Source: Dugong dugon
Lineage: Eukaryota; Chordata; Mammalia; Sirenia; Dugongidae
Direction: 5' to 3'
DNA length: 64,000 nucleotides
Assembly: GCA_030035585.1 (NCBI GenBank)
Contig: CM057481.1
Location: 6,411,128-6,475,127, forward strand
Shown: positions 7,615 through 40,936 of the stretch, piece by piece
Numbering within the stretch: the stretch's first letter is position 1
Layout of the letters: each line of letters starts with the position of its first letter
Translations under genes and position numbers: made by a program
The notes under the pieces: generated by a model
Database searches by the model: none
The model's input: the letters and a program-made list of their open reading frames with translations, nothing else
Told to the model about the DNA's origin: nothing

Positions 7615-8624
7615 CGTTGGGAACATTAGAATAGTTTAACAACTTCAGGCTTTGGAGGCGAATTTTTTCTTTATAAAATAGCCAGCCATTTTCTGACTTG
7701 ACACTTTTTATAATCCTGTTGCTGGTTTTCCATGGATTGATCTATTTTCTTCAGTTGGGTGGTAAGGTGGTTCCCGATTTAGAAAAATGAAGTGATCTCC
7801 CAGAGAGGGTGAGTCTGAGTCATTCAGAAAAGAACTTTGTCATATATAGGCATCTGACTGATGGAAAATTATTCCTTGTGGTCTGGATACCAAATGGATT
7901 TGGGTCACCCTAGATGCCAAGTGCCACATCTCGCTCCATCCCCCTCTCTGACTTTCCCCAGAAAGGCATATGGGCAGCACTTATAGCTGGCCGCATTCTG
8001 GCTGTGTGTCAACCACGGATTGTTCTTGTCTTGAACTCTATTTTGCCCCTTTCCTCTTTTTCTCATTTCTTTTCTCTTTGAATTTGGACATTTTACTATA
8101 ATAGTTCCCTAGGAATGCTCATATGCGTTTGTAACTGTAGGCAAGGTCAAACAGTGTAAGTATTTTTTCTGAATTGCTCTTATATAAACAAAGATAAAAC
8201 CAGTTGAGAAAAGCCTTGAAGAATTAGAAGGGTTATAGTCAATGCTTAACAACGAAATTTTCCTCTTAGCTAAGACGATCAAATGAAACGGTGAAAATAA
8301 ATATCACCTGACAAATGGGACCTAGTGGATCTGGGTTAAGGTGGCAACCGGAAAGGGCAGAGAGATTTATGAGGAAAGCCTGTTTTGTTGTCTACGTGCA
8401 AGCTTCTGCTTGAAAACACCAACCCCAGTCAAGGCAATGCGTGCAGCAAGAGTATCATATGTTAGGAGAACTTACCGAGACTATATCGTAGTGGACATTA
8501 AATGAGGAACACTGTAAATGGCACCCTCTTTGCACCTAAGAATCTGTAGAAATTGAATTTTCTTTCCTTAAAGTGGTATATGGTTTAGGTTTCTTATCTG
8601 AATTTTATAAATGCCCATTTTTTA

Positions 8625-8642
8625 AATTGTCTTCTCTTTCAG
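8625..8642 (+). promoter_or_regulatory. FHIT: FHIT intron 4 3' splice site
   Basis: A pyrimidine-rich run ending in the invariant AG directly precedes the exon sequence ACTTCAACTTTGAGGAA and the FHIT start codon. No other AG lies between the tract and the exon. Confidence 0.9.
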
Positions 8643-8762
8643 ACTTCAACTTTGAGGAAATGTCGTTCAGATTTGGCCAACATCTCATCAAGCCCTCTGT
8701 GGTGTTTCTCAAGACAGAACTCTCCTTTGCCCTTGTGAACAGGAAGCCTGTGGTACCAGGAC
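8643..8762 (+). CDS. FHIT: FHIT first coding exon (human exon 5)
   Basis: The exon starts after a polypyrimidine tract ending in CTTCTCTTTCAG and has 17 bases of 5' UTR. The ATG at 8660-8662 has a purine at -3. It then encodes 34 codons beginning [20 protein letters not shown] and ending KPVVPG, plus the first base of codon 35, and stops at a GT at 8763. From memory this matches the N-terminus of mammalian FHIT residue for residue, and the phase-1 junction agrees with the known Gly-His split. FHIT is a cytosolic/mitochondrial HIT-family hydrolase that cleaves diadenosine triphosphate to AMP and ADP, and it acts as a tumour suppressor. The N-terminal strands are encoded here. The catalytic histidine triad lies in later exons outside the window. 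The reading frame stays open 87 bases upstream of the ATG into the intron, but that part is not coding. Confidence 0.96.
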
Positions 8763-8768
8763 GTATCC
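8760..8768 (+). promoter_or_regulatory. FHIT: FHIT exon 5 5' splice site, weak match
   Basis: The junction reads GAC|GTATCC. Only GT and the A at +3 fit the consensus AG|GTRAGT. The exon ends in C instead of G and positions +4 to +6 do not match. The position is fixed by the FHIT reading frame, since the next codon is completed by exon 6. A weak donor could favour skipping or cryptic donors. Confidence 0.8.
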
Positions 8769-10542
8769 TTTGTTTGTTTTAAGAGAGGAAAAATAAAAAG
8801 CCTCCAAGCCTAACTGACCAAATGAATACAGGATTGGTCTCCCATGTCCGTCCAGAAAAGGTAAGCAAGGAATCCTCCCCGCCCCTTTGGAGAGATCAGG
8901 TAAGATGTTACTCACATTTATTCTGAATCCTGTTGGTGGTACCGGGAATGTGCTCGATCAGTGCTGCAGAACATCTGAAAAGAGTTGCTTGGCAACCGTG
9001 GCTTTGGAGGTGATTTTTTGCTTGACCGCTTCACTACTGTAGCAGTGTAATAAATAGGTGCTTCTAATATGAATATCGTGGGCACTTTGTTTTCAGTTTG
9101 TCTATTGTGAATTTTGACAGTAGGTTGGAAATGGAGTGCCATCTTTGTGATGTGGAAGTAAGGTATTATGTGATGATTTGAGACTGACTTTGTTTCTTTA
9201 CTTCTTGGGGATGATTCAGGCTCTGCGTTTTAGTAAAATTAATGCACGTAAATATACTTACACAGAAAATATATATTTTTTCATGTTAAAACCTGAAATA
9301 GCATTTTCTTTTGGGAAAATAGTCCAACTTGTAGATCCTTGTCCCGTATCATTGATGGTAGACTCTGACCATCGAGCTGTAGTCTTCCCTCCACTGACTT
9401 CAAGAGGGGCTTTATTCCTTGCAGTGGGAGTAGGAAGAATTGGTGAAATGCTCTAGGGGAACTATTTTTTAATGTTGTTGAAAGTAGCACTTGTGATTTT
9501 GTACATATAAATTTTGTACTGACTCTTCAGGTTTTTTTCTTCCTCTCAACTTAGTTTACTATGCAGAGGGCAACAAAATATAAAATTTCATATTTTAAAA
9601 TAATGAGCATTTTTTCCTCACTGAGATATCATTTCATTTTGAAATGAATTCCTCAGTAATTCTGAATGTACGAATATGCCAAGATATTTTTCAGAAAAGG
9701 TTTTATTTTTTCAGTGAAAATTTTCAGAGTGCTTGAGAAATTCATGAATAATCTTCCTTCTTGGCCAAGTAGCTGTTGTACACTGAAAAAAAAAAAAAAA
9801 CACACACACACACACACACAAATAAGAAAAAAACTTAGCAAAAGATAACTGTGATTGTATGAGAAACTCCCAAAAATAAAACTGAGTCTGAAATATGAGT
9901 GCTCAATATTAGAAAACTACATTTTTTTTTTTTTGGAAATACAAGAAAAAACTAGAGTGTTTTAGAAAGGTCGTGAAAAATGACAGTTTTTAAGTTGTAT
10001 ACTTATTTTGTATTGAGGTCATCTAAAGCACCTTGAAGTTCTTGAAATAACAGAAGCATTTTATTTCTTTATTTGGTTTTGCTATAAGTTCATGGTGGTC
10101 TTTTTCCTTTGAGGAATAGTTTTTAAACAGAATGTCTGTAAATTCAGGGGTCAGCGATACAGTTTAAATGCCATCCCTCTCTATGTGCCAGCTTTAATTA
10201 ATTTCTAGTAAAGAACTACGGGAACTTGGGATTACAAGGTGAATTCGATGAACAAATCTTATTGCCTTAGATTGAGAGAATGTGTGATTTCAGAGATGTA
10301 AAAACCTCTTTTTCATGGTTATTAATGGAATGAACTTTGCTTTGCGATTTTTTGCCTCTCATTTCATGATAATAAGTAACTTGTTTTTCCATGGTCTTTT
10401 TAACCAACTCTGAAAGGGTAATATGTAAGACTTACGACATGTTTGTGTTTGAACTCAAGAGAAATGGATATGTCTGATTCTAGTGAAATGTCCGTACTGA
10501 ATACTGAGCACTTAGTGAGTGATGACAACGTTTTCTTCCTGA
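8763..10542. other. FHIT: First part of intron 5, no named repeat
   Basis: Apart from the A/CA repeat at 9786-9820 and a short T-run near 9921, this is unique-looking AT-rich sequence. The three ORFs here (for example 9178-9456) show no domain and are not flanked by splice sites that would fit FHIT. Confidence 0.6.
9786..9820. repeat. A15 (CA)10 simple repeat
   Basis: Fifteen A are followed directly by ten CA units. Reading frames through it on either strand (about 60 codons) are artefacts. Confidence 0.98.
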
Positions 10543-10555
10543 TGGATTTTCCATT
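10543..10555. repeat. L1 target-site duplication, left copy
   Basis: TGGATTTTCCATT is repeated with one change at 17694-17706 on the other side of the L1. It is the footprint of endonuclease-primed integration. Confidence 0.85.
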
Positions 10556-10572
10556 TATTTATTTATTTATTT

Positions 10573-11737
10573 GTTTATCTTACTGTACTTCAGGTGAAGG
10601 CTTACAGAACAAATAGTTTCTCATGAAACAGAAGTACACATGTTGTTTTATGACATTGGGTAACAACCCCACAACATATCAACCCTCTAACTTCTCAACC
10701 TTTTTTTTTTTTTTTGGTGAAAATACCCATAAACAAAGATACACCATTTCAAAAATTTTTACGTGCACAGTTCAGTGACATTGACTATGCTCTTCCAGTT
10801 CTGCTGTTATTCTCGAGATGAAGGCTTACAGAACAAAATAGTTTCTCATTTAACACTTATCACAAATGTTGCCCTATGACAATGGTTAACAATCTCACAA
10901 CACATCAACAATATCCTTACTGAACCTTGTGTTCCCAGTCGCCAGCTTCGTTGTCCCTTCTGCTTTCTGGCCCTTGTCACTGGATGCCTGTACCTCGTTA
11001 GTCTCATTTGGTTTTATGGGGCTGTCCACTCCCAGGCTGAACAGTGAACCTCAGAGGTAACTTCACCACTGAGCTAAAACGGTGTCTGGGGGCCATACTT
11101 TTGGGGTTTCTCCAGTCTCCTTTAGGCCAGTAAATCTGGTCTTTTTTGTGGGTTAGAAATATACTCTACATCCTTCTCCAGCTCTGTCCAGAACCCTCTG
11201 TTGTGATCCTGGTCAGAGTAGTCAGTGGTGGTAGCCGGGCACCATCTAGCTGTACTGGACTCAGTCCGGTGGAGGCCTTGGTAGCTGTGGACAATTAGTC
11301 CTTTGGACTAATCTTTTCCTTGTATCCTGTTCTCTTCATTCTCCCTTGCTCCTGAAGGGATGAGACCAGTGGAGCATCTTAGATGGCCGCTCACAGGCTT
11401 TTAAGACCCCAGACACTACTCACCAAGGTAGAATGTAGAGCATTATCTTTATAAGCAGTGTCATGCCAACTGAGCTAGATGTTCCCTGATACCATGGTCC
11501 CCAGAGCCCTCCGTCCAACAACTCAGTCCCTCGGGGAGTTTGGATGTGTCCATGGGGCCTCCATGACCTTACCTTGTGCAGGTTGTGTTAGTTTCCCTTG
11601 TACTGTGTACTGTCTCACCTCTCACCCAAGATACCACTTATCTATTACCTATTTAGTATTTCCCCCCCCCCTCCCCTTCCATCCCTGGTAACCAACAAAG
11701 ATTGTTACATTTTGTGTGTGAACATTTTCATGGGTTT
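10573..11737 (-). other. L1 3' UTR with duplicated terminal segment
   Basis: The terminal phrase GAAGGCTTACAGAACAAA occurs twice, near 10596 and 10821. Between the copies lie a T-run at 10701-10716 and a segment with GGTGAAAATACCCATAAAC and TTCAGTGACATTGACTATGC. The rest carries TGTCTGGGGGCCATACT and GATGAGACCAGTGGAGCATC. The same arrangement is in the truncated L1 at 56513-57306. A C-run lies near 11662-11676. Confidence 0.8.
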
Positions 11738-14700
11738 TTACAATAGAGGTCTCATACAATATTTGTCCTTTTGTGATTGACTTATTTCACTCAGCATAAT
11801 GTCCTCCAGTTTCATCCATGTTATGAGATGGTTCACAGATTCATTGTTGTTCTTTCTCGTTGCATAGTACTCCACTGTGTGTATGTACCATAGTTTGTGT
11901 ATCCATTCATCTGTTGATGGGCATCTAGGTTGTTTCCATCGTTTTGCTGTTGTGAACAATGCTGCCATGAACATAGGTGTGCATATGTCTATTCGAGTGA
12001 TGACTCCTATTTCTCTAGGATATATTCCTAGGAGTGGGATTGCTGGATCAAATGGTATGTCTATTTCTAGCTTTATGAGGAAGCGCCATATCATTTTCCA
12101 CCAGCAATGCATAAGAGTTCCAATCTCCCCACAGCCCCTCCAACATTTGTTATTTCCACTGTTTTTTATTCGTGCCAGTAATGCTGGGGTGAGATGGTAT
12201 CTCATGGTGGTTTTAATTTGCATTTCTCTAATGGCTAGTGATCGCGAGCATTTCCTCATGTGTCTGTTCGCCATTCGAATGTCTTCTTTGGTGAAGTGTC
12301 TGTTCATTTCCTTTGCCCATTTTTTAATAGGATTAATTGTCTTTTTGTTGTAGAGGTGTTGGATTTTCTTGTAGATTATGGAGATTAGACCTTTGTCTGA
12401 CTTGTACTGTCCAAAAATTTTTTCCCAGTCTGTAGGTTCTCTTTTTACTCTTTTGGTGAAGTCTTTTGAAGAGCATAGGTGTTTGATTTTTAGAAGATCC
12501 CAGTTATCTAGGTCATCTGTTGGGGTTTGTGCATTGATGGTTATGGTTTGTATCCTGTTTATGCCATGTATTAAGGCCTGAAGTGTTGTTCCTACTTTTT
12601 CTTCTATGAACTTTATAGTTTTAGGCTTTATATTCAGGTCTTTGATCCATTTTGAAGTAGTTTTTGTATATGGTGTGAGGTATGGGTCCTGTTTCAATTT
12701 TTTGCAGATGGATATCCAGTTTTGCCAGCACCATTTGTTAAAAAGACTGTCTTTTCCCCATTTGATGGACTTTGGGCCCTTGTTGAAGATCAGGTGAGCG
12801 TAGGTGGACGGATTTACATCTGGGTTCTCAATTCTATTCCATTGGTCAATGTATCTGTTTTTGTACCACTACCAGGCTGTTTTGAGTACTGTAGCTGTAT
12901 AGTAGGTTCTGAAGTCAGGTAGTGTGAGTCCTCCAACTTTATTCTTCTTCTTCAGTAATGCTTCCCTTATTCAGGGCTTCTTCCCTTTCCATATAAAGTT
13001 AGTGATTAGTTTTTCCATCTCTTTGAAGAATGTTGTTGGTATTTGGATCAGGATTGCGTTGTATTTGTAAATTGCTTTGGTAGAATTGTCATTTTCACAA
13101 TGTTGAGTCTGCCTATCCATGAGCATGGTATGTTTTTCCATTTACGTAGATTCCTTTGGGTTTCTTGCAGTAGTGTTTTGTAGTTATCTTTGTATACATC
13201 TTTTACATCCCTGGTCAGATTTATTCCTAAGTATTTTATCTTTTTAGGGGCTATTGAAAACGGTATTGTTTTCCTGATTTCCTTTTCATCGTTCTCCTTA
13301 TTGGTATATAGGAATCCAACCGATTTTTGAATGTTTATCTTGTATTCTGCTACTCTGCTGAATCTTTCTATTAGTTCCAGTAGATTTCTTGTGGAGTCTT
13401 TTGGGTTTTCTATGTATAGTATCATATCATCTGCAAACAGGGACAATTTAACTTCTTCATTACCAATTTGGATGCCCTTTATTTCTTTTTCTTGCCTTAT
13501 CGCTCTAGCTAGAACTTCCAGCACCATGTTAAATAGGAGTGGTGATAAAGGGCATCCTTGTCTTGTTCCTGTTTTCAAGGGGAATGTTTTCAGCCTCTCT
13601 CCATTAAGAATGATGTTGGCCGTTGGTTTTGCATAGATGCCCTTTATTATGTTGAGAAATTTCCCTTCTATACCTATTTTATTGAGTTTTCTTATCAGGA
13701 ATGGGTGTTGGACTTTGTCAAATGCCTTTTCTGCATCAGTTGAGATGATCATGTGATTCTTTTCTTTCCTTTTATTTATGTGGTGGATTACGTTGATTTA
13801 TTTTCTAATGTTGAACCATCCTTGCATACCTGGTAGGAATCCTACTTGGTCGTGGTGTATTATTTTTTTGATATGATGCTGAATTCTATTGGCTAGAATT
13901 TTGTTCAGAATGTTTGCATTTATATTCATGAGAGATATTGGTCTGTTTTTTTCTTGTTTTGTGGCATCTTTGCCTGGTTTTGGTATCATTGTTATGCTGG
14001 CTTCATAGAATGAATTTGGAAGTGTTGCTTCCTCTTCTATGCTCTGAAATAGCTTGAGTAGTACTGGTACACGCTCTTCTGTAAATGTTTTGTAGAATTC
14101 TCCTGTGAAGCCATCTGGGCCATGGCTTTTTTTGGTTGGGGTTTTTTTTATTACGTTTGCAATGTCTTCGCTTGTTATGGGTCTTTTCAGATTTTCAACA
14201 TCACTTTGTTGTAGTCTGGGTAGGCAGTGTGTTTCTAGAAATTTATCCATTTCCTCTAGGTTTTCAAATTTGTTGGAGTATAGTTTTTCATAATATTCTG
14301 TTACAATCCTTTTTATTTCAGTTGGGTCTGTTGTAATGTCCCCCATTTCATTTCTTATTTGGGTTATTTGTGTCCTCTCCTGTTTTTCTTTTGTCAGTCT
14401 GGCCAGTGGTTTGCCGATTTTGTTGATTTTTTTCAAAGAACCAACTTTTGGTTTTGTTGATTCTTTCTATTGTTTTTCTGTTCTCTATTTCATTTATTTC
14501 TGCTCTGATCTTTAGTATTTCCTTTCTTCCGGTGTCTGTGGGCTTTTTTTGCTGTTCTATTTGTTTGAGTTCTGTAGTTAATGTTTTGATTTTGTCCCTT
14601 TGTTCGTTTTTGGTATGTGCATCTATTGCTATAAATTGTCCTCTGAGGACTGCCTTTGCTGTGTCCCAAAGGTTTTGGTATGATGTGTTTTCATTCTCAT

Positions 14701-15530
14701 TTGATTCTAGGAATTTTTTGATTCCATCCTCGATTTCTTCTATTACCCACTGATGTGTAAGCAGGGTATTATTCAGTTTCCATGTCATTGATTTTTTTTC
14801 CCTTGCTCTTTCTAATGTTAATTTCTACCTTGATGGCATTGTGGTCAGAGAAGATACTTTGAATTATCTCAGCGTTTTGGATCTTGTTGAGGATTGCTCT
14901 GTGGCCTAAGGTGTGGTCTATTCTGGAGAACGTTCCATGTGCATTGGAAAAGAATGTGTACTTTGCAGCTGTTGGATGGAGTATTGTATATATGTCTATG
15001 AGGTCCAGTTGGCTGATTGTGCCCTTTAGGTCTTCTGTATCTTTTCTGAGTTTCTTCTTAGTTGTTCTGTCCTTTACTGAGAGTGGTGTGTTGAAGTCTC
15101 CTACTCTTATTGTGGAACTGTCAATTTCTCTTTTCAGTGTTGTTAGAGTTTGTTTTATGTATTTTGCAGCCCTGTCATTGGGTGCGTAGATGTTTATTAT
15201 GGTTATGTCTTCAGGATGGATTGTCCCCTTAATCATTATATAGTGTTCTTCTTTGTCTTTTATGGTAGATTTCATTTTAAAATCTATTTTATCTGAGATT
15301 AGAATTGCCACTCCTGCTCTTTTTTGGTAGTTGTTAGCTTGATATATTTTTTTCCAACCTTTGACTTTTAATAAACTCACATCTTTGTTTCCAAGGTTTG
15401 TCTCCTGTAGACAGCATAATGATGGATCCTGTTTTCTTATCCATTCTGTCACTCTCCATCTCTTTATGGGTGCATTGAGTCCATTTACATTCACTGTGAT
15501 TATTGATAGATGTGAGTTTGTTGCTGTCAT
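11738..15530 (-). pseudogene. L1 ORF2 (endonuclease/reverse transcriptase), inactivated
   Basis: ORF2 encodes the L1 endonuclease, reverse transcriptase and C-terminal domain that carry out target-primed reverse transcription. The first 253 codons form the endonuclease. N14, E43, D145, N147, D205 and H230, the catalytic positions of human L1, are all present (motifs VNVNGLN, LQETN, RVGDFNTP, FSRIDHTLGH, FSDHNA). The reverse-transcriptase part shows [13 protein letters not shown] and the active-site LFADDMIL near 13450. The C-terminal part has a Cys/His cluster ([15 protein letters not shown]). Breaks: frame changes near 14770-14790, near 14350-14435 and between 13048 and 12697, and an in-frame stop at about 13798. 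The span, 3793 bases, is close to the usual 1275 codons. Confidence 0.93.
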
Positions 15531-16003
15531 TTTGCAGTGCTTTTTTTTGTGGTGCTGACGTTTTCTTTGTTCTTCTTACTCTCCTATGCTGAGTTACTTT
15601 TGTTTGTGGAGTTTTTTCATCATTTCTTTTGTTTCTGTAGGTTTTGTTTTTGCTGAGACTTTATGTGTTTCCTCTTAATTTTTATGAGTCTGTTTGTTAA
15701 CTTTCTTTGTGGTTACCATGAATTTTACCCTTATCTTTCTAAGTTTGAAGCAGTCTAGTATTGCTTGTTATTGCCTTGCCTTCCTCTCCATTAGAAGGTT
15801 CTATACCTATGCCGTTTATTCCCTCTTTTATTGTTCTGATGTTGTTGTCATTTACTGATTAACTGCTCTGATTCCCTGTTGTATTTCTTTTGGTTTTGGA
15901 TAGTCCTCGAGAGTTCATTTACTAGATTGGTATCTGGCTGGTACGATCCTGTGTCCTAGGTTCTGCCTGTGAGCTGAAGCTGTTTGTCCTCAGATCGAAG
16001 AAC

Positions 16004-17005
16004 TCACTTTAATAATTCTTGTAGGTTTGGTTTGACTTTTACATATTCCCTTAATTTCTGCTCATCTGGAAATGACCTAATTTCACCATCAAATTTGAAC
16101 CAGAGTTTTGCAGGATTTATTATTTTTGGCTGGCAATTTTTTTCTTTCAAGATTTTATATATGTCATCCCATTGCCTTCTTGCCTGCATGGTTTCTGCCA
16201 AATAATCTGAGCTTAGTCTTATTGTTTCTCCTGTGTATGTGACTTCTTGTTTTTCACGAGCTGCTCTCAATATTCTTTGTTTGTCTTTGGTTTTGTCGAG
16301 TGTAAATATGATATGACTTGGTGATTTTCTTTTGGGGTCTCTTCTATATGGGGTTCGTTGAGCTTCTTGGATGGCCAGCTTTTCATCTTTCATGATATTG
16401 GGGAATTTTTCTGTCAGCAGTTCCTCAATGATCCTCTGTGTGTTTTCTGTTTTCTCCCCCTTTTCTGGAATTCCAATCACTTGCAGATTTTTGCTTTTGA
16501 TTGTGTCTCACATAACTCTCAGGGTCTCTTTATTTTTCTTTGTTCTTTTTTCTGAGTTTTCCTGAAACAGAGTTGTATCCAAGTGTTTGTCTTCAATTCC
16601 ACTGATCCTGTCTTCCATGGTTTCAAATCTGCTTCTCAGCCCTTCTATGACATCGTCCATTTCTGAAATCTTGTTGTTTATCTTTTGGATTTCTAATTGT
16701 TGTCTTTGTATAATTTCTGGTTGTGAATTTATTTTGGCATTTTATTCCTTCCTTATTTTCCTGAATTCTTCCAGTTTTTTGTTCATATTTTCCATGAATT
16801 TGTCTATTTTTTCCTCATGTTTGTCAGCTTTTTGCCTCAGTTCTTGGAGAATCCTGAGTATTAGAGATTTGAATTCCCCATCAGGTAGTTCTAGTGCATT
16901 TTCTTCCAGAGGAGAGTCATCTGGTGATTTATTTTGGAGACCTACTGGAACCATCCTGTCCTGTTTTGGTAAATGTTTTGTTATTGTCTGCTGTCTTCGG
17001 GGCAT
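16004..17005 (-). pseudogene. L1 ORF1 (RNA-binding protein), two nonsense codons
   Basis: ORF1p is the trimeric RNA-binding chaperone that coats L1 RNA. One frame runs from an ATG at 17005 (MPRRQQTITK) to the stop at 16004, 1002 bases, the usual size. It is broken only by an in-frame TAA at 16742-16744 (codon 88) and a TGA at 16508-16510 (codon 166), with no frameshift. The first third is charged and coiled-coil-like (EEKIDKFMENMNKKLEEF). After NLQVIGIPEKGE come the RRM and C-terminal parts (PSHIIFTLDKTKDKQRIL, RRQWDDIYKILKE). The TGA could be a decayed CGA arginine codon. Confidence 0.92.
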
Positions 17006-17693
17006 TCAGTAGTTATTTGTCTCGTTTATTGATTGTAGATTTGTTTGTTTCATCCCTTTTTTAAAAAAAAGTTTGACTATGTCTGAGCAGGCAGACTGTG
17101 TATTCTTTGTTGTTCGCTCTTCTGTGGGCACAATACTTTTCGGCTCCTTCTTCAACTGGCAGGGTCAGTCACTCAGATATGGTACGGCAGGGTAGGTCTA
17201 GCTGAAGAGGGGTTACTGGGATGGGTTGTTTGTGGCACTTATTACAGCCACCAGAGCAGGACGGTAATCAGTGCAGAGCAGGTTCCAGTAGGCCGTGCCT
17301 GTGCTGCTTGGTGGTGTGATGTCAAGCACACGGTGCAGGTAGGCAGGATGTAGCGGGGAGATTGTTATGTGTAGAGTGGTTGTTTTGTCTCCTGCTGGAA
17401 GCTCCGTGAGGCTGCTTTCTCGTACCCCCTGTTTGCTGTTCTTCGATAGGAGTCCAAGATGGTGGATCCACGCTGTGTTAGCTGCTAGGGGACCTCTGCA
17501 TGAATCTCTCCTTGCTCTCCGTTCTCTGTCAGTTTTCTCACTCCATTTGGTGCTTGGCTGAGTTCTTTATCTCTTCATTTGATGTTTTAGGGTTTCAGGA
17601 TTGTTGTATTCTCTGTTCGTCTTAGTTTTTCGGATCTTTGCTGTGGAGGGACGGAGTGGTGCTTCTGCCTAGAGCGCCATTTTGCTGGAATTC
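17006..17693 (-). promoter_or_regulatory. L1 5' UTR / promoter region
   Basis: About 690 bases lie upstream of ORF1 to the L1 end. They are more GC-rich than the flanks and contain AAGATGGTGGATCCACG and GCGCCATTTTG (plus-strand view). The latter resembles the YY1 site GCCATnTT found at L1 5' ends. An antisense L1 promoter, if present, would fire in the FHIT sense direction. That is inference. Confidence 0.6.
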
Positions 17694-17706
17694 TGGATTT
17701 GCCATT
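17694..17706. repeat. L1 target-site duplication, right copy
   Basis: TGGATTTGCCATT directly follows the 5' end of the L1, whose plus-strand sequence ends CCATTTTGCTGGAATTC. It is paired with 10543-10555. Confidence 0.85.
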
Positions 17707-18265
17707 GTTGAAATGATTTCTGGTCAGATAACATCTTTGAGTAAATTCCAAGCACATAGGAAATATTTTATTAAAATGAACAAACCTCAGTGTGTTGGAA
17801 GTTAGGAAGAAGGATGTGGCCCTTTCTGAGGATGAGAATAATGAGGACAGGAAGATTTTTGTAATCCACACACTCTCTAAGGCTATTTCGCATATACAGT
17901 GCTTAAAATGATCTCAGGGCCAGTGGATAATGCATTCAGACAATCCTTTTTATACGATGATTTTGTAACTTTTTATTTTACTTTACCTTTGTAAACTGTT
18001 AGGTCACATCTGTGAGAAGAATCTTAATAAGGCATTCGTTTGCCTGTGGAAAGCTGTATTCTTTTGTCCTGAGATTTGAGAGTTGAAGCTGTGGGTGGCT
18101 CTGCCCACTAACATTTCATGAAATAAACAGTGCAATCTCTGCAGTGGGTTTTAATCCGCCCCCTCTCCACCTATATGCCATTCTGCCGGCCCTAGTCTAG
18201 TCTTGTGATGTGGGTCATCTTGCTTTTTGCAGGAATTCTCCAACTGAGCCTATGTCTTGTTCCAA
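17707..18265. other. No recognisable feature
   Basis: Unique-looking intronic sequence between the L1 and an L2-like stretch. No frame with coding character was seen. Confidence 0.5.
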
Positions 18266-18560
18266 AGCATAGTTCTGATCATATTGCTCTCTTATTCCTT
18301 TGCTAACAAACCTTTCACGAATCTCCATGTTTCTTGAGGATGAAGTCCAAACTCCTGAGCACAGTTTCTAAAGATGTTCATTATCTTAGTTCAATCTACC
18401 ATTTTCTGGCTACTTCGCAAACATGTGTTGTGCTTAGCCTTCACCATGGTTCCCCTAGCAGTCTCTGCACCTTCAGATCCTTCCCATCCTTTTACAATGG
18501 GCTAAAGTTTGATACCTGTCCTGCCCTCTTAGGAAACAAAACAAAAGAATTCTGTGCTCT
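18266..18560 (+). mobile_element. L2-like LINE fragment
   Basis: TTCTGATCATATTGCTCTC, GATGAAGTCCAAACTCCTGA and a later CCTTCACCATGGTTCCCC follow the L2 3' region order (plus orientation), although divergence is high. Confidence 0.5.
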
Positions 18561-18594
18561 TTGTTCTTGACACTTTGTTCCTTATTCACATGTT

Positions 18595-18665
18595 GATTCA
18601 TTCACCAATTTATTATTGAGCTTGTATTCTGTTCCAGGCACTGTGCCTAACACTTATCCCAGTCT
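18595..18665 (-). mobile_element. L2/MIR-type terminal fragment
   Basis: TTCATTCACCAATTTATTATTGAG followed by TTCCAGGCACTGTGCCTAAC is the antisense of the widely shared L2/MIR 3' end. Confidence 0.5.
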
Positions 18666-20904
18666 GCTTCCTATCAGAACTACGTGTGTTCCTGTTTGCC
18701 GCTGTGCAAGTCATTCCTGGGAAGGGGTGGGGACAGAACCTGCTCTCATGCAGCTCTTTCTTCTCAGCATCCAGTAGCAGGATGTTGGCTGGATTTAAAG
18801 TGAAACTGTAAAGATTAGGAGCATATGGATGGTTCCAGGGAATGGAATGGGATAAGCCCGTGTCTGGTGAATTCCTGCCTTTTTAGTATCCCCATGCACA
18901 GAGCCAAGCCTTGTCACCATTTTATACCAGATTTTTGGTATCATTTCTAAGTTGCAGTTTCCCTGCTTTTCCTCTGTGCTTTGTCAGTGACAACCCTGTT
19001 ACACTTCTGTGTAAACAGTTACCGAGTAGGTCTGATAGCAGTGAATGAATTGATGGCAGAAGGGGGAAGATTCCTTGCCACTCCTTCTACACGTGAATTG
19101 CTCAATGGGCAAGTCTCTTTTCAAGGCAGTTTATTGGCACCTTTATGTGAAATGAAACATTTTATTTTCTGTTTTTGGTAAACTCTTTAAAAACTATATT
19201 CAGGTGGCCTTTGGGGAGTCTGCCATTCATGAGAGGCTTGTAAATGTCATCTTTGAACTGGTGTCCCCTGTAACATTTTGCTCCACACTGCAAACGTTTT
19301 TTCTGATGACTTTACTCACTGACTTTCAGAGGAGGCAAAGCACTGTCAGATCAGGGGCTGAAGATATGCTTTCGAAGCACAATTGTTTGCTTCAGTCTCA
19401 AAAGAGCACTTCAGTCCCTCCATCTCCCCACCTAAAGCAAACATCACTGTTCATTGCAAACAACGTTTAAAGTCAATTGAATAGGCTTTGGCCTCTGTGG
19501 TGTAACACTCTAGAAGAATATGTCAGAATGTCTTTAATCCACTAATTTCTTGTTACTGGAAAACTTTTTTGCAGAATGTCTTGGTGAGAGAACAGGCGCA
19601 TTTTGGAGATTGCGTCTTCATAATTCTGCAGTGAACATTTTATTCATGGATCTCGGTGCTGCCTCGCTATTATTCATGGCTTAAATAAATTTGAACCAAT
19701 ACGTTTAATATTTCTTCCTCCTCCCATGCCCCCTCCCCCCGCCATTGCATTGTGCCATGAACATTAGTGGAACACATTTGGGGACTGGGGCTTTTATTGT
19801 AAATAAAATTATTCATTTGTTATGTCCTGTTGTTTTCAGCAGACAGTGTATTGATCTTTGTGTTGCTATTCAGAATGGCATAAGGAGCTCTGACATAAGG
19901 TGAACACAGCAACATTTGTGGACAAATGGAATGCATTGTGTAATGACAGAGATGAACCTTGCTCTCTGGCCATACTATATTATACAAATCATTTGTCAAC
20001 AGCTTATTGAATCATTTATTAAAAAGCAGATCTTTTTCCAATGAGAGCATTGCACAGAATGTTATCAGGGCCAAACGATGTTAGGGTGATACATGGAGCA
20101 TAACCTTACAAAGTGTATTTATGAAGAATTAGACCAGGCAACTTAAAGGACATTTTGCTGACTCATTCAGAACCTAAGTTTGGTGCGATGGAAATTGTGC
20201 TCTGCCATCCAAACTCAGTAGATAAAAAAGAGAACTCTGACCAATGTCTTTTAGAACAAAATTTTGCCTTTTCAAATAGAGCAATGTTCGGTTTTCTCTG
20301 TTTCCTGATTATAGCCATGCAGAGTATTCCTGAAATAAATGAAAAATAGTAAAAATTGCTTCATTACTTACAGCAATTTTTATGGAATAGATGCTGTAGA
20401 TAAAGATGCCCTTTTAGTCCTTCTGTAAAAAGCAGCGATATTTGTCATTTCCGGAGGAGGTTATATTCTCATCAGGAAACTGTGGTTATTAGTGATCTGA
20501 TGATCTTTCACTTCTCAAAAGAGTTTCTTTTTAAACCTTCCTGTACAAATAAAATGAGTCCAAGCACTATGTTAGCATTTTTACTGCTAAAGATAGATTT
20601 TGGCTCTTAAAATTGCCCTAAGCACATGTCTTTTTCCCCCTTGTGCATGCTTGCTGTATATTAGCTAGCTTGAAATACTCTTGGGGAGATGTTTGAAGAC
20701 CTTCTTGCTGTTCTTTGCCCTAAGCTGTAATGCGGCAAGTCAGTTTTCTTGTGGTCAGGTTTTCTTTTCCGGACTTTATCTGGCAGATTGTCGTGCTCAA
20801 AGGATATGCATACAGCTGTGATTGCTCAGTTAATTCCCCCTGCCCCTGTTTCTATGGAAAAAGTCTATATAAATGTGCACCTACCCTTAAGTTATTAGAG
20901 GACG
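18666..20904. other. FHIT: Unique intronic block
   Basis: About 2.2 kb with no recognised repeat. Locally notable are a C-rich run at 19725-19742 and several ATTCATGG motifs near 19640-19680. ORFs such as 19204-19470 and 18981-19181 have no family resemblance. It is a candidate for conserved non-coding sequence because it is repeat-poor. Confidence 0.5.
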
Positions 20905-20975
20905 TTGTCACAAGCTATAGGGTTGCAATGAGTCAGAATAGACTCGACGGCAGCAGGGTTGGTTTTGGGTTGGCC
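20905..20975 (+). mobile_element. AfroSINE 3' fragment
   Basis: CTATAGGGTTGCAATGAGTC, then AATAGACTCGACGGCAGCAG and GGTTGGTTTTGGG, is the tail of the AfroSINE in sense orientation, heavily 5'-truncated. Confidence 0.8.
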
Positions 20976-23459
20976 ACCAGCTGGCACCAACTTTTGATGG
21001 CATTGGTCGGCAGGAACAAAGGATGCTCTTGGATGCTTTCATCATTTTCTAAGTTGCCAGCAATTTTTTTCAGTCTCTAGAACCTGCCACAGGGGATGCT
21101 GCCAGACCCCCACCGTAAGGCAAACTTGGAGGACTGTCGTTCATCTTGCCTTGTCATCCGAGGAATTAGTGCACAGAAAGCAAATGTATTTGATCTCTAA
21201 CGCCAGCTCATCAGTTGGTAGCGAGCTCATAGCGTTGAGGGGATTCTGAGGCTGGGTGTAGGGTCAGTGAGCAGTAATGTCATGGGCACCAGAGGGAAAG
21301 AGGAGCCCTCTGACCAGATTCTTTCTTTCCCTAGTTTAGCTTTTGTTCCTAGAGCCGAGACTGGCATCTTTGTTTTTATTACAGACAGAATGATGGATTG
21401 TTGGGACCCAACACTGAAAGAATTAAATAGGAACTTTGTATGTGTGCAAGGAATGTTCAAAATTGGATGGAGAAAAATGGGTGGATTTTATACACTTTGC
21501 CCTGGTCCTTATACAAAGGTGACTCAGCCACGGAAACAGTGTGCCTGAAGCATGTACATATTGGTCTCCAGACCCCATCCAGGCTGCTTCCTTCTGTCCT
21601 CTGTCTCTCCCTATTGACTCTCCTGGTTCCTTGCTGCCTGATCCCTGGAGGGGACATGCACACGGTTGGCCTTGTGATTCACTTGGCCCCTGGGCTTAAT
21701 TTCTTAGTTTTGACTGTCTTTCCTTGACCTTGGCCTCTTCTTCAAAATAAGATTTACCTTCTAGCTTCAGGCCCCGCTGTGAATCGAGTGGGATGGGCTG
21801 AGCTGATCGTAGGCATGCATTAGAGGAGGGGAATGTAGCTGGCTCTTTGACCAGGGCTTTTAGGAGGTTTCTGCATTCTCTCAGTATTGCACGAAGGCTG
21901 TAGCTTCGCTTTCACAACTAGAAAAGGACACCTTTACAATCTGCCCGCGTATACATGGATAATTTTGTTAATGTGTGAGGGGAGGGGAGGATATTGAGGA
22001 TGCTGTCTCTCCAGCTATAGCAAATGGTAGGATGATAATTATACATACCAAAATAACACCTTGAATGTTTCTCCTGTTAATTGCTAAAGTGGGTATCCGG
22101 TACAATGGAAAGTTCTTCCCCGTTTCTGTTTACTTCCACGTGTAGTGTTCCTCAGGTAATTTTAAACTGTTGTAGTTAGCAATTACTGAACTCTGTTCAT
22201 TATATTCTGGGCATATTTTTAACCTGCTTTCGGTGCGAGGCATCAGATTATGAGGAACAGGAAAAGGCTGGTTGTGGTGTTGGCAGCCTTGTGCTCGTAA
22301 CAGAACATAATTGGAAGTAATGACTGGAGTAATACATCATTATTCATAACAAATGTCATGTAATTAACTCAAAGAATGCAAAATATAGTCTAATTTCCAT
22401 TTGGAATGAAAATAGATTTGTTAAAACACCAGTAGGCAGTTTATGTTTATCCTATATTTTCATACACATATCAAAACTGTTAAAATCTATTGAGCGAATA
22501 GACATAGATCTTCTACAACACAATAAGTCAAGATGGCTTTCTTCTCCTGATAGAGCCTATGTATATTATTTATTTATTATATAATGCATAATGTGTATAT
22601 ATGTCTAATTTTTGCAGTTAGCTTGATTATTTATATTAATTGCAAATTAAAGATCTAATTTTTTATTTAGCTCCCATTTCGTCTCGCAAACTAATTGACT
22701 GAAAAAATAAATATAAATTTACAAATCGCTCTTGGGCATAAATCCTAAACTGGCTTTATGCTAAGGAGAGCTCTCTACAATACTAAGTATCTGAACTGGT
22801 TTTGGGACTTAGGCTATTTTTCTGAGATTTCTGCTACAGTCTTTAAATATGCTTCAAGAATCTTGGCTTGACTTGGATGTAACCATAGCTGAGGGTCAGA
22901 ATGTGGATGAATATGTCTTAGGTGTGAGAGTTATTTTTATATGTAAAATCAGGCGTAGAGTCACTGACCAAGGAGACCATCAGAGGTAGTTTCTGGAAGC
23001 CCTCTGCTGGGCAGTCATCAGCCTATCAATCTCTGTATTGTGGGGAGGTCTGCGGAGTCTCTGGGGAGGAGGCAGAGGTGTAGTGAGCATCCTTCAGGGG
23101 GCAGTATGCACAGATGTGTTTCACTGTTTTAGTAACATGAATGGGTATGCCAGTGCATACACTTCCAGTAACGGCCCTGGCTTCAGAGTGATGAAGACCG
23201 ATGAGAGGAAGTTGCCTTTCGATCTGTGGGGTCCAGTGTGGTATTCTTCAACACCGTTGGTTCTAGCACACTGATAGATTCGCCGATGAATTAAAGACAG
23301 TGGAGCTCTGTCTTTGTTTCAAATGGCAGTCTTCCTCTTTGTGAACCGGTAGCCTCCTACCATCAGTTCAGGGGAAAGCCTAACTGTAGCAGGAGGTACT
23401 GAGGCAATGTTCTTTTTGTCGGTCTGTCTGTCTTTCCCTCTTTCTTTCTTTCTGTCTTT
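20976..23459. other. FHIT: Unique intronic block with AT-rich core
   Basis: No named repeat over 2.5 kb. 22555-22725 is very AT-rich (TTATTTATTTATTATATAAT and related). ORFs such as 21440-21727 show no domain. It is a repeat-poor stretch within an otherwise repeat-rich intron. Confidence 0.5.
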
Positions 23460-23845
23460 CCACTCGCTTTGCTCCAGCCACACCCACTTCCTAGTTGTTT
23501 CTTGAACATTCTAAGCACTTTTGCCTCACAACCCCTGTACCAGCTATTCCTTCTAGCTGGAATGCTCTTCCCCTGATGTATGCGTGCCATGCTTTGTCAT
23601 CTCCTTCAGATCTTCATTCCTGTTGTATTTAAACACTACCTTCTCAGGATGGTCTTCCCCATTATCCTATTTTAAATTACACATACACACGTTTTATTTT
23701 TCCTTGTAGCACTTAATTTCTAACTCACTATGTAACTTATTACTTGTTTGGTTTATTGTGTGTTTTGGGCTGAGTAGAGTACGAACTCCATGAGGGCGGG
23801 AACTGTAGTCTGGTTTTCAGTAGATATTTGTTAAGTTAATTTGTT
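23460..23845 (+). mobile_element. L2 LINE 3' end
   Basis: CTTTGCTCCAGCCACACCCA, CAGCTATTCCTTCTAGCTGG, AATGCTCTTCCCCTGATG, AACTCCATGAGGGCGGGAAC and GTAGATATTTGTTAAG follow the L2 consensus order to its 3' terminus. Confidence 0.8.
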
Positions 23846-24458
23846 AAGTGAGTACTCCTGGTGGACCACCTCAGCTTTTAAGCTTTGAAGCTAAGAAGGA
23901 CAAGAGTTCTCATTCAGCAGACAGAATGATTTGATAAATACTCACACCAGGCAGTACAGGGTAGTGGATAAGATTAGTGCCCACCTGGATTTTTACATAC
24001 CTATACTCATGCGTGCATAAACACACTTAGATGCATACCTAAAACCGATCATTCCAAAGTGGCTTGCTTTGAAAGAGAGAGAAGCAACAGTGGGCTTGAG
24101 AATGGAAAAGCCACCTCACCCAGCACAAGCACAGTTTCCATAGATTTCCATGTGGATTCCAGCCTGGCGTGTGAAGCCAGTTCTTTCTCAGCTGAGCCGT
24201 GCTGTCTGGGGTGATATTTTCTATCCACTTAACATCAGAAATTAACAGAAGGGCTTGGTATCTCATCAGCTGGTGAGTTCTGATTTCCCAAGAGTGTGCT
24301 TGCCTCTGTCTTGCTTTCCTCAGGAGATCCAGAGAGCTCTGCGCACAATTTCTTCAGTCCTTCAGTCAAGTTTTATGACCCCATCTTCTTGGCTTCTCAT
24401 AATATAAGTTTTCACACATATGTACTCATTTATAGGCCTATATTTCCATTTCTTTCTC

Positions 24459-24463
<5 letters not shown>

Positions 24464-24499
<36 letters not shown>
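24464..24499. repeat. (TA)18 microsatellite
   Basis: About 36 bases of alternating TA. Long TA tracts can extrude cruciforms and are the type of flexible sequence discussed for the FRA3B fragile site. Confidence 0.97.
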
Positions 24500-24505
<6 letters not shown>

Positions 24506-24669
24506 ATCATATGTATTTACTGTATAAAAACCCTTAGCGACCCTATACTTCCATATTTTCATTTCTTTACTCCCTTTGATACAACCTTCCTTTAGTTTAT
24601 TGTTATGTGTTCAATAGCCAAGACAATGCCGTTAGAAATTATTAGTTTGCCTATTTATTTCCTTAATTG

Positions 24670-24746
24670 TTTATAAAAGGCAGTTCTACTCTGTCTCATA
24701 GGGTCATTATGAGTCAGAATTCAACTTGACGGCAGTGAGTTTGGTT
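24670..24746 (+). mobile_element. AfroSINE 3' fragment
   Basis: AAGGCAGTTCTACTCTGTC, CATAGGGTCATTATGAGTC and GACGGCAGTGAGTTTGG form the 3' half of an AfroSINE in sense orientation. It sits directly before an opposite-strand copy. Confidence 0.85.
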
Positions 24747-24761
24747 TTTGGATGATGGATA

Positions 24762-24952
24762 AAGTATACCAAAACCAAAAAAAAAAAACAAACAAACAAA
24801 CCTATTGCCATTGAGTCAGTTCCAACTCATAGTGACCTATAGGACAGAGCAGAACTGCCCCATAGGGTTTCCAAGGAGCAGCTATTGGATTCGAACTGTC
24901 AACCTTTTGGTTAGCAGCTGTAGCTCTTAATTACTGTTCCACCAGGGCTCCT
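24762..24952 (-). mobile_element. AfroSINE, near full length, antisense
   Basis: An A-rich and CAAA tail precedes CATTGAGTCAGTTCCAACTC, GCCCCATAGGGTTTCCAAGG and the head CCACCAGGGCTCC. GATAAAGTATA occurs on both sides (24751-24761 and 24953-24963), a target-site duplication. Confidence 0.92.
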
Positions 24953-24963
24953 GATAAAGTATA

Positions 24964-26214
24964 GTACTTGTCAAAACTACTGGGAGCTGGACAACTGTAT
25001 TTTAGTCTTATCGGGGGGATCTTAATCAAATCATTTAATCTTTTTTGTTTTGTTTTTCTCATCTGGAAAAAAGAATGGTATTGCTGCTACCCGCCTCCTG
25101 GATTGTTTTAAGGACTAAAACCAGATGAAGTGAAAATGGCAGAATTAATGTATTTGGCTTGTGGGAGCGTGGTATGATAATTAGAATTTTTTCATCGCCT
25201 GTTAACCTAATACTTTAAGGCTGGTCTGGCCCTAAATTTGTAAAACTGAAGATTAAATTGAATTAAAAGGAACTTCCTGGATTTCTGTGTAAACATTGCA
25301 TAGCAACTGAAAACCCCAGACCCAATTTTAAATCCCTCAATTGAAAATGGCATCTGGGATTTAAAATAGACCTATGAATTGACAGGGAATTTGATGTTCC
25401 GTGAGCCTTTTTCTATTCTTTTTTGTAAAGCATGCTAAAAAAGCAAGCAAAAGAGTCTTATTATTTTCTACCGTTTTTAGCAGCTGGGAAGAGTAGGTAT
25501 ATGAACCATCCTGGGGTTCCTTCATGACTTAGCATTGCTTTGCCGTTATGGTTTGAAATTAAACCCTCAAGGGGTCTAGATTAGCCTGGATGCTCAGCTC
25601 TCATTAGCCGTAATGGGAGTTCCTGTACACGTCTCTCTCCTCCACACGCAGCACTGAAAAATGACCCTCTAACATCACGTTAGTGTCTTTCTCTCTGAAC
25701 TAATTTTAATGGAGTTTTCTTTCTTTTTTTTTTAAGTGAAGCATCTCTGTGCAGTCCTCAGGGCAATGAAATTGCCAACAATTCGCTGATAAGCAACAGG
25801 CCTTCATTTTGCCCCACTCAACCTTCTTGTGCTAGAAGGGTTCCGTTGGGACTAACTTCAGTTTCTGGGCTATATGCTTCTCTTTGATTCCATTTCAAAT
25901 GCAGCTACTTTTCTTCTTCTTGAGTTCCTCCTCACCTCCCTTTTTTCTACAACTCGGCCCCTGATACAATAATCAGTACCCAGTCGGTACTCAGCAGTAA
26001 CGTAGTTCTGAGACATCTGAAATGTAAGGGAGAAAAGGAGTTATATTTATTCAAACTACTTGCAATTCTCAATACAATCTAGTAGTTACCAGCTAATGAA
26101 TTGCTTGACTAAGTAAACGTTTTCTTTAAATTATGTCTATGTAAAAGCAGTCCAATGTGTATCAAACATAACAGATTTTAAAATCTCACATTTTTTTGTC
26201 TGATTATATCTGAC
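24964..26214. other. FHIT: Unique intronic block
   Basis: No repeat or gene recognised. T-runs lie near 25043 and 25720. Composition is ordinary for the intron. Confidence 0.5.
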
Positions 26215-27100
26215 CATTACAGAAAATAAAAACCATCTATAATCTTATTATCCAGAAATAATCCCTGCTAAAATTTCAGTTTTTCTTTCCAGTTTATCGT
26301 CTTTGTTCATATATATATATATATCCTTCCAGAAAAGTGGGATTATAAAATATGTAGCATTTTATAATGTGATTTTTTGCCCATTTTGTTGTTGTCATTT
26401 TATGATGTTTTAAAATATACTCAACCCTGTAATTTTTAATGATGGTGTAACTTATAGATTTACTATAATTTCTTATTTACTACTTTTTGATGTAATGTAT
26501 ATAATGAATATTTTGATATAGGATCTTTGATCATATTATGAGTTTTTAAATTGATGAATATTCCCATATTTCCTTTACACCAGAGGTGCATGATGATAAC
26601 ACATTCCACCATATTCTCATCAGTCTTAAGAAGTACGGTTTTGGATTTGTCCTAACCTTTGCCAGTTGGATGGATTTTCCACATCTCATTGTTTCCATTT
26701 GGATTATCTGATTTCTAGTGGGGTGAACTTTTAAGTGTATTTACTACTTGTTTTTATTATTAAATTGTCTGTTAATGGCCTTTGCTCATTTTTTTTAATC
26801 GAGTATTTTTGAAACTCAATTTGTTAGGGATCTTTTAGAAATTAACCCCGTCTACCATGTTTGTTGGAAATATTGTTACTGCTTTGACCTCAGCCTTGTC
26901 AGTTTGCATATGACGTTAGTGACATATAGAAATTTTAATCCTGATTCTAGTGAAGGTTATCAAGATTTTTATTGGGAGTTTTCCATTGCTTTATGCTTGC
27001 AGGGCCTTTTTTATATTCTGATAGCAGTTAAATATTTATGTATATTTTCTTGGGTTTTTTATGATTTTTCTTCCTTTTCTTTTACTAGTCTTCTGTAACC
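26215..27100 (-). mobile_element. Old L1 fragment, antisense
   Basis: TTTTTTGCCCATTTTGTTG, TTTTTAATGATGGTGTAAC, GATTTCTAGTGGGGTGAAC and GTTAATGGCCTTTGCTCATT match the antisense layout of L1 ORF2 C-terminus and 3' UTR. AT repeats lie at 26309-26322. No frame survives. Confidence 0.55.
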
Positions 27101-28439
27101 AAAAAGTCCCCCACACTTCAGAGGCATGCTTTAAAAATTCACTTTATCTCCTGGCAACCCTTTGAAGGAGGTAGAAAATGCTATTCCCAAGCTGCAAATG
27201 AAGACACTGGGGGTGTAGCAATGCACCAGATAGTCCTGTTCTAGAAACAGAGCCACGTGTTCACATTCTAAAAATTGTAACACAGGTAAGCATCCTCTTT
27301 ATTGAAGTCTTAAGTAGCCTTTCTATTATTAATTGCTAGTTTTACATATTTCCTGCATAAAGGTAATATTGGAAAGGTAGATCTGAGGGGATATGGCAAA
27401 ATTGGAATGTGCCTTCTGAATCATCAAAGATATTTTCAGTGTGAAGTTACACGATGTGTTGTTTTACATTCTGGATTATGCTTAATATCATCACCATAGA
27501 AAGTGCATTTGTAATATTGTAGTTCCTTGAAAATGATAGAACGCACACGGTAATTCCAATTTAGCCGGATCATTTCCTTAAGCTGAAGACTCTGTCATTT
27601 GACCACTAATGAAGAACAAAAAGGCCTCAGAAATATCAGTGGGTCATCTGCCTGCAGACCTACAGAGGCGAAGTGAGGGATACATGGGAAATGGCCTACT
27701 TCCTGTGACTCTGATACTCTCTGAAAATTGGTATTTGAAGGAGTGGGAAAAAGCCTAAGAATATGTGAAAGGTATGGTGGTATTGGATGGAAGAAGTATA
27801 TATTTAGTCATAATTATCAAAATCACATAGAAGTAATGTAACTAAAAGAAGATGTCTATGCTGAATTCTATGCTCTCTGTTCTGAGACAGTCTCCTGAAT
27901 GAGCTTTATCAGTTCTTAGAAATAACATTAACAAAAAAGTTCTCCTGGTAAAAATATATTAACCTAGCCCTGTCATATTATGAAATCTTGATTACTTGTA
28001 ACTGTTCACCAACTTTTTGTCATTAAATATTTCTTAATTGCTCAGCATAATAGCCCCCCCTCCCCACATGTTTTTTAGTCAAAACTCAACAGAAATTGCC
28101 TTAAAGAACTCCCACTGTCTGGTGTGACTTTGAACATGAAAGGGTTTTAAAGACAGGATGCTGCAACCCATATTCTGTGGGGTGGGGATCCCGACAATTC
28201 CTTTTTTTTTCTTAATGCCAGGAAGTTGAAATATGCATCTCCATTGAATTCTCAGGTTACTGCAGCCCCTATGACAACAGTTCCGATGATAGTATGGACG
28301 TAATTGTTCACTCCTCTCAGATGCTCCCTATCATTGTCCCAGCCATGAGGACATAACATTCAGCATAAAGCGCTCATCCCATGGCAGCCATTCTGCCTGC
28401 AAAATCAAGTCATTCTTTTATTCACTTATTTGATATCAC
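27101..28439. other. FHIT: Unique intronic block
   Basis: No feature recognised. A C-run near 28054 and a GGGGTGGGGATCCCG stretch at 28179-28193 are the only compositional marks. Confidence 0.5.
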
Positions 28440-28665
28440 TCATAACAGTTATTTATGCCATAAGATTTTTCTAAGTATTTGACAAATGCTAATCGATTTA
28501 ATACTCATAGCAACTCTAGGAGGCAGTTACTATTAGCATCTCCATTTCAAAGATGAGGAAATGAGGTACTCAGAGCTTAACTCATCTAGATCCCATAGCT
28601 GGTGAGTGGTGGAACCATGTTCAAACCCAAATGGTCTGACTCTGGAGTTGATGCTTTAAACCAGT
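28440..28665 (-). mobile_element. MIR SINE, antisense
   Basis: AATACTCATAGCAACTCTAG, CATTTCAAAGATGAGGAAAT, CATAGCTGGTGAGTGGTGG and AATGGTCTGACTCTGGAG follow the reverse complement of MIR from tail to head. Confidence 0.85.
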
Positions 28666-29261
28666 GGTCCTAGGGCCCCTCAGAGTTCCTGAGACTCTTT
28701 TGAGGGTCTGTGGGCTCTTTCCTGTTCCAGCTACTGATCTGTTTGAGGCCAGCTTTTCTTCATATACTTCAACAAAAACAAGGATATCGCCATAGATTGA
28801 GTACAGACACAGAAGTGAGAATCCAGTTGTCTCCCATCAAGCTAGTCATTAGAGCTTTTCAAATAATGCTACTCGTCACACTAATTTTTTTTTTTAAATA
28901 TGGTTATTTATCATAAATAATGTTAACATGTTGTGGGTTTTTTTTTTTAAATAAGTTCTTAAATATTTTTAAATGTTCTCAGTTCTAATGTCTCACTAAA
29001 TATAGAGAGTTATAATCCACATAAACAAAAGCCCTTTCGGGTCATCAGTCATTAGCCATGTAAAGGGATGCAGAAACCAAAGGATTTGCAAACCGCTTCT
29101 CTGAACCCGTATTCAGGCTTCCTCATTCCTTTTCTCAGCTCCGTCTTATTCCTTCAAAAAGCCACTATTTCTGCTTTAAGTTTCACTTTAAAAAAAAGAA
29201 GACGTGAGTCTTATTTCCTGAGGGAGAAGGTGATTTTGAATGCTGAGCAGCGCTACTCATA

Positions 29262-29402
29262 GGGCTGAGGAGTGTAAGCTCCGGGCCCGAGTACCTGGGT
29301 GTGAATCCCAGCTCCGCTCCTTGTAGCAGGAAGGCCTCAAGCAGATCACTTCAGCTGTCTTTTCTCAGCGACCTCATGCTTTACATGGGGGTAATAGTAC
29401 TT
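29262..29402 (+). mobile_element. MIR SINE, 5' half
   Basis: TAAGCTCCGGGCCCGAGTAC, GGTGTGAATCCCAGCTCCG and the run to GGGGGTAATAGTACTT match MIR in sense orientation. The copy is split by a younger SINE and resumes at 29739. Confidence 0.8.
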
Positions 29403-29738: not shown

Positions 29739-29835
29739 TAGTACTTACTTCACTGGGTTGTTTTGAGCATCACATGAGTTATATGCAAAATGCTTAAACT
29801 GTGCCCGTCACATATGAAGGGTCTGAATACTAGCT
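29739..29835 (+). mobile_element. MIR SINE, 3' half
   Basis: TTCACTGGGTTGTTTTGAGC, AAAATGCTTAAACTGTGCCC and the following run continue the MIR that begins at 29262. Confidence 0.8.
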
Positions 29836-31770: not shown

Positions 31771-31773
31771 CTT

Positions 31774-34095: not shown

Positions 34096-34266
34096 ATTTT
34101 AATAATGAAAACAGCTACTCATTGCAACCTTTATTTCTCCTTTCAGAACACTTTTCACCTGTTATTGGAATTATTTTTCATCTTTTATATTAGATGTTAA
34201 GACATGAAATGTTAGAGGCCATGTTTCTATCATTTATCATTGAATCTTCAGTATATACCACAGTAT

Positions 34267-40922: not shown

Positions 40923-40936
40923 CATGGGATAATAAA

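Follow-up and report, generated by a model that had tools for sequence, protein, structure and literature searches.

Intron 5 of the FHIT gene of Dugong dugon is very probably a U12-type GT-AG intron of 588,404 bp, flanked by exons 5 and 6 that are each of mixed splice-site class and that are predicted to be lost jointly; this is the best explanation of the observations taken as a whole. U12-type introns are well known, and FHIT intron 5 would be one of them at a notable place. The window, which is the whole stretch of DNA that was analysed, comprises 64,000 nucleotides (C24:6411128-6475127, plus strand, C24 being a contig of the dugong assembly), and the genome searched comprises 3.16 Gb in 196 contigs.

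Exon 5 is the first coding exon and occupies positions 8643..8762 of the window on the plus strand (120 nt; C24:6419770-6419889). It features 17 nt of 5'UTR, the ATG at 8660-8662, codons 1-34 at 8660..8761, and, at 8762, a single base that opens codon 35. A sequence-only reading of the window had placed an FHIT exon with an ATG and 34 codons, flanked by AG and GT, at exactly these bounds, and the identification holds, since the peptide shows full identity with residues 1-34 of human FHIT (34/34; PDB chains 1fhi and 2fhi, E 2.3e-17). The same reading described the window as centred on this exon, which is wrong because the exon starts about 13% into the window; its description of the host as an afrotherian agrees with the taxonomy of Dugong dugon (Afrotheria, Sirenia). 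Exons 6 (C24:7008294-7008439), 7 (C24:7011725-7011754, 30 nt, located by script), 8 (C24:7113453-7113521), and 9 (C24, from 7297021) are all present downstream on the same contig and on the plus strand. Introns 5, 6, 7, and 8 measure 588,404, 3,285, 101,698, and 183,499 bp; the first 55,238 bases of intron 5 lie within the window (8763..64000, plus strand), and the intron ends at C24:7008293. The distance from exon 5 to exon 9 is about 877 kb on C24, a span that does not contain exons 1-4. The joined exons 5-9 encode 148 residues that are letter for letter the annotated dugong bis(5'-adenosyl)-triphosphatase (P0002), and the exon 5/6 junction is thus forced. The later exons on the same strand complete a full HIT protein, and exon 5 is a member of the FHIT gene. 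A six-frame search of the whole genome for FHIT returned four matches with an E value of 10 or below (6 of the 6 best candidates scored), all on the plus strand of C24, so no intronless copy was seen in this search. No Pfam family was reported for the 34 residues of exon 5 alone, and Rfam and ARAGORN found nothing in the 64-kb window.

The two splice sites of exon 5 differ in kind. The 3' splice site of intron 4 (8619..8642, plus strand, AG at 8641-8642) is U2-type with a pyrimidine tract. The 5' splice site of intron 5 (8763..8771, plus strand) reads GTATCCTTT in the context GAC/GTATCCTTT, where the slash marks the exon boundary, and it agrees at 9 of 9 positions with the U12-type donor consensus RTATCCTTT. 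The GT noted earlier at this flank is indeed present at 8763-8764, but the U12-type class of the donor had been overlooked. The motif GTATCCTTT occurs once in the 64-kb window with both strands counted, and shuffles lead to an expectation of 0.83 copies, so that its presence in 64 kb is not unusual and it is the exact placement at the donor that is. Scoring by simple matrices and a consensus, both uncurated, gave the donor a U12 score of 12.6, equalled by 4 of 14,360 other GTs of the sampled intron 5, and a U2 score of -4.4, equalled by 43% of the same GTs. The donors of exons 6, 7, and 8 are all GTGAGT, and those of exons 6 and 8 rank in the top 0.05% by the U2 matrix.

The 3' end of intron 5, TGCCTTAACCAGCCTCGCTGTAG, features CCTTAAC, the U12 branch-site core, followed by TAG. 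The putative branch A precedes the intron's last base by 15 nt, and because an AG occurs 4 nt past it, the second AG must be the one chosen. The branch motif GCCTTAAC differs by one base from TCCTTAAC and matches what is expected of a U12 branch site, namely a sequence close to TTCCTTAAC that precedes the 3' splice site by about 10-20 nt. Exact CCTTAAC at 8-20 nt upstream was found for 6 of 16,890 AGs in a 245-kb sample of intron 5, a count that takes in the real acceptor and includes one motif twice. An extended polypyrimidine tract is absent from the acceptor of intron 5 (13/20 pyrimidines, 5/20 T). The acceptors of introns 4, 7, and 8 have 16-17 pyrimidines and 12-13 T in 20 positions (for intron 4, positions -23..-4, 16/20 and 13), and the acceptor of intron 6 is likewise pyrimidine-rich.

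The donor, the branch motif, and the weak T-tract together make this counterpart of the FRA3B core intron look like a minor intron. At its two ends intron 5 appears to belong to the minor class. Of the remaining FHIT splice sites, the four acceptors (introns 4, 6, 7, and 8) and three donors (introns 6, 7, and 8) that were examined appear to belong to the major class. The likeness to U12-type GT-AG minor introns extends to the RTATCCTTT donor, the CCTTAAC-type branch site near the 3' end, the scarcity of T upstream of the acceptor, and the occurrence of a single such intron among U2 introns; what sets FHIT intron 5 apart is its great length and its place at the centre of what is, in human, a common fragile site. 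That cells use the minor spliceosome here, and that the human intron is of the same class, are inferences. Searches of openly available full texts turned up no work that describes FHIT as having a minor intron, and it is quite possible that intron 5 has already been catalogued in intron databases. In the available text of the PIntron paper, FHIT is a benchmark gene and U12 is a mere class label. FHIT is absent from the text of PMC8034651 and of one paper that brings together common fragile sites and the minor spliceosome. A published human intron 5 donor was not found by a text search of the literature, in which none of the titles of matches listed concerned FHIT gene structure. PMC5085753, a paper on DMD among those on circular RNA, names FHIT 3 times.

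The age of the donor can be approached through protein models, since gene models that leave exon 5 uncut reveal the start of intron 5 as read-through residues. In the dugong, the read-through past exon 5 is 11 residues long (ORF 8540-8782). A set of 163 proteins was collected (the best 120 of 637, the best 120 of 624, and 7 of 7, after overlap), of which 9 hold exon 5 and then something other than exon 6; P0044, which adds only four residues before exon 6, was left out of the 9. The residues RIL are found in 6 of the 9, namely P0099 (Pogoniulus), P0156 (Anabas), P0158 (close to P0099), P0159 (Chiloscyllium), P0161, and P0162, and P0160 features RIF (1/9), with one break with the donor consensus. 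P0157 (Lynx) and P0163 (Muraenolepis) have neither. After the first base of codon 35, RIL requires C/GT ATH YTN, which means A at +3, T at +4, and a base other than G at +5; for RIL and RIF together (C/GT-ATH-YTN or TTY) both G at +5 and A at +4 are excluded, and the RIL codons are compatible with GTATCCTN. These residues suggest the same donor in birds (Pogoniulus), a ray-finned fish (Anabas), and a shark (Chiloscyllium), and human falls within the span so outlined. Some of the entries are related, and the six may therefore represent perhaps four lineages. No relative of the read-through was found in viral contigs.

In 26 of the 163 proteins an unrelated N-terminus (SD, AD, TD, and others) stands directly before exon 6. 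These are annotated vertebrate FHIT models from among P0121-P0156, mostly of the form ...SD/VLVCP or ...AD/VLVCP. In 23 of the 26 the residue before exon 6 is D, and in all 23 the residue preceding it has an NNA codon; reading straight on from the final AG of intron 5 yields exactly this D. The alternative N-termini count against the rule that exons 5 and 6 go together, but they fit a read-on from the end of intron 5. If they are spliced instead, another donor could reach exon 6. TAD is common to rat, horse, yak, and two bats, which suggests that the 3' end of intron 5 was read as coding. In P0137 and P0146 another N-terminus is joined inside exon 6. In P0044 (Rousettus) the four residues LTED separate exon 5 from exon 6, which would fit use of an acceptor located 12 nt before exon 6. 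Of five other models, 4 contain a full variant exon 5 and 1 contains the last residues of exon 5. Additionally, an isoform from Choloepus (P0001) lacks the 30-nt exon 7 and P0094 (Rhynchocyon) lacks exon 8, and both join exons 5 and 6.

In the proposed mechanism, the left edge of exon 5 would be a U2-type acceptor and its right edge a U12-type donor, and exon 6 would be the mirror image of exon 5. The U11/U12 particles would have to pair one donor with one branch site over all of intron 5, and the other FHIT splice sites examined would be left to the major spliceosome. U12 donors as a rule pair only with U12 acceptors, though exceptions exist, and under this rule exons 5 and 6 would be kept or lost together. 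Should minor splicing fail, or should exon 5 be lost from the genome, the major spliceosome would be expected to join exon 4 or an earlier exon to exon 7, 8, or 9. The excerpts of PMC8034651 report for other genes that a block of the minor spliceosome leads the major spliceosome to skip the exons flanking the minor intron, and that U11-59K binds U2AF. FHIT resembles the exon-bridging systems of that paper in that exons 5 and 6 each have one U2 and one U12 site and in that skipping of both flanking exons is the predicted failure; unlike FHIT, the genes studied there are others.

Abnormal human FHIT transcripts offer a comparison, drawn here from the available text of one paper, PMC2375220, which describes six classes of sequenced transcripts. 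Exons 4-8 are skipped in class 1, exons 5-8 in class 2, and exons 5-6 in class 3, which also has a new site within exon 7. Class 4 skips exons 6-9 and uses new sites within exons 5 and 10, class 5 replaces exons 5-7 with 138 bases of intron 5, and class 6 carries a 50-base insertion from intron 7. In 0 of the 6 classes as described in that text is the normal donor of exon 5 used without exon 6 or the acceptor of exon 6 without exon 5. In the one class where part of exon 5 is retained but exon 6 is absent, a different donor, inside exon 5, is used, and the sixth class has no bearing on the rule. This one published series thus fits exons 5 and 6 staying or vanishing together. In cervical lesions, exons 5-7 were consistently missing, with or without exons 4 and 8, according to PMC2362444, and 96 aberrant FHIT transcripts are reported in PMC2374304. 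Exon 7 is cleanly missing in 14 of 120 collected proteins (the best 120 of 637), which may explain the frequent loss of exon 7 too.

Few fragile sites have been studied as much as FRA3B, and alterations of FHIT are frequent in cancer (PMC3262564). Dugong intron 5 is presumably the orthologue of the intron that lies in the human fragile site (also PMC3262564), and to this extent the sequence-only reading, which called the locus the counterpart of FRA3B, is borne out. The dugong locus shares with human FHIT/FRA3B (3p14.2) the gene, the exon 5 peptide, the start codon, the large intron after exon 5, and the start of exon 6, where human primer 6F begins ATGTTCTTG (PMC3262564, partial text). Intron 5 measures 588,404 bp in the dugong and about 520 kb in human. 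Fragility is known for human FRA3B and putative for the dugong locus. Two sequence marks proposed for the locus did not bear up when 19 sampled 10-kb tiles of intron 5 were compared with 8 control tiles. The AT content is 59.1% in intron 5 and 59.0% in the controls (p 0.75), and TA/AT runs of at least 8 units number 0 in the intron 5 tiles and 3 in the controls. L1 cover, estimated from DNA-level resemblance to the L1 found in the window, is 9.7% in intron 5 versus 29.4% in the controls, which is not significant (p 0.17). AT-dinucleotide-rich stretches, a proposed and disputed feature of fragile sites, were set aside as a candidate with 0 runs in the 19 tiles. What is common to human and dugong is the size of the intron and no obvious sequence feature. 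This agrees with the available part of PMC6911102, in which fragility stems from transcription across large, initiation-poor gene bodies and is not accounted for by AT-dinucleotide stretches or sequence barriers.

It is very improbable that intron 5 is an ordinary U2-type intron whose weak donor resembles the U12 consensus by chance. U2 donors are variable, two of the nine proteins that run past exon 5 (P0157 and P0163) show neither RIL nor RIF, and some U12-type sites are spliced by the U2 spliceosome as well (PMC10853781, in the text available). However, the donor and branch motifs would have to coincide. Equals of the donor were seen at 4 of 14,360 other GTs and the branch motif at 5 of about 16,890 other AGs, which amounts to roughly 1 in 10 million per given pair, in an intron where the U2 donor signal is absent and the T-tract is weak, and chance would not preserve a donor that can be deduced in birds, fish, and shark. 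A U12-type intron 5 is favoured by this evidence. A rather doubtful alternative holds that the abnormal human transcripts result from genomic deletions or nested-PCR artefacts and are uninformative on intron class. Exon 5 is deleted in tumours, and in a genomic PCR survey losses of exons 5 and 7 correlated and that of exon 6 did not (both PMC3262564, partial text), although this correlation concerns DNA and not splicing. Against this alternative, transcripts lacking whole exons are reported from normal leucocytes, with 0 loss of heterozygosity in 36 informative patients (PMC2063063), from 8 of 18 paired non-tumorous livers (PMC2151291), and from histologically normal cervix (PMC2375220), each in the parts of these texts that were available.

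The locus may also be no more than an orthologous fragile-site gene in which size and transcription matter and the class of the intron is without effect on fragility or FHIT loss, and this could equally be right or wrong. In PMC6911102 fragility is put down to the size of a transcribed gene body with little replication initiation inside it, and the composition of intron 5 is ordinary. This explanation is silent, however, on which aberrant mRNAs arise, and exons 5 and 6 go together in two published accounts (PMC2375220 and PMC2362444). Joint loss is what U12-type splicing of intron 5 would predict.

On a wider reading, for which the balance of judgement is slightly on the doubtful side, FHIT would be a minor-spliceosome-dependent tumour suppressor in jawed vertebrates, with an ancient U12 intron in a fragile site and with aberrant transcripts that mark failed minor splicing. 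An ancient U12-type intron would have grown past half a megabase, and its donor would wait over two hours of transcription for its sole partner. FHIT nascent RNA is cleared at about 4 kb/min in human (PMC6911102, partial text), and 588 kb at this human rate corresponds to roughly 2.5 hours, which would put the ability of a rare spliceosome to keep hold of its donor to a severe test. Scaled from the sample, intron 5 contains roughly 320 GTRAGT and 200 pyrimidine-AG U2-like sites, as well as about 12 GTATCCTTT and 29 loose U12-like acceptors. The U12 class may protect the intron, as a U12 donor should not pair with U2-like sites. The aberrant FHIT transcripts of normal and tumour tissue, debated for many years, would then reflect failed minor splicing and not DNA deletion only, and the level of FHIT protein would report minor-spliceosome activity. 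If intron 5 is indeed U12-type, a simple rule would hold, with exons 5 and 6 present or absent as a pair. Failed splicing and deletion could then be told apart as causes of FHIT loss, and FHIT would be linked to the disorders and drugs that hit the minor spliceosome.

The window also features several repeats. A near-full-length but broken L1 lies on the minus strand at approximately 10565-17700, about 1.8 kb downstream of exon 5, with endonuclease, reverse transcriptase, and ORF1 domains that each lie in a different frame. No target-site duplication of this L1 was found by eye. A copy of the 3' part of this element, at 88-95%, lies at about 56.5-57.3 kb. A second, more decayed L1 fragment on the plus strand (62000-63900) has a reverse transcriptase match and is about 75-81% like the first where aligned. 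The six 10-kb tiles of the window contain 2 TA/AT runs of at least 8 units, the longest of which, (TA)18, lies within 24464-24503; this array has 20 units by TRF, and its 18 uninterrupted units exceed every other such run in the window and in the 19 tiles of intron 5. tRNA-like SINE copies are located at 24788-24918, 40946-41076, 44395-44525, 48540-48670, 63887-64000, and elsewhere, and belong to a family that, we assume, resembles AfroSINE.
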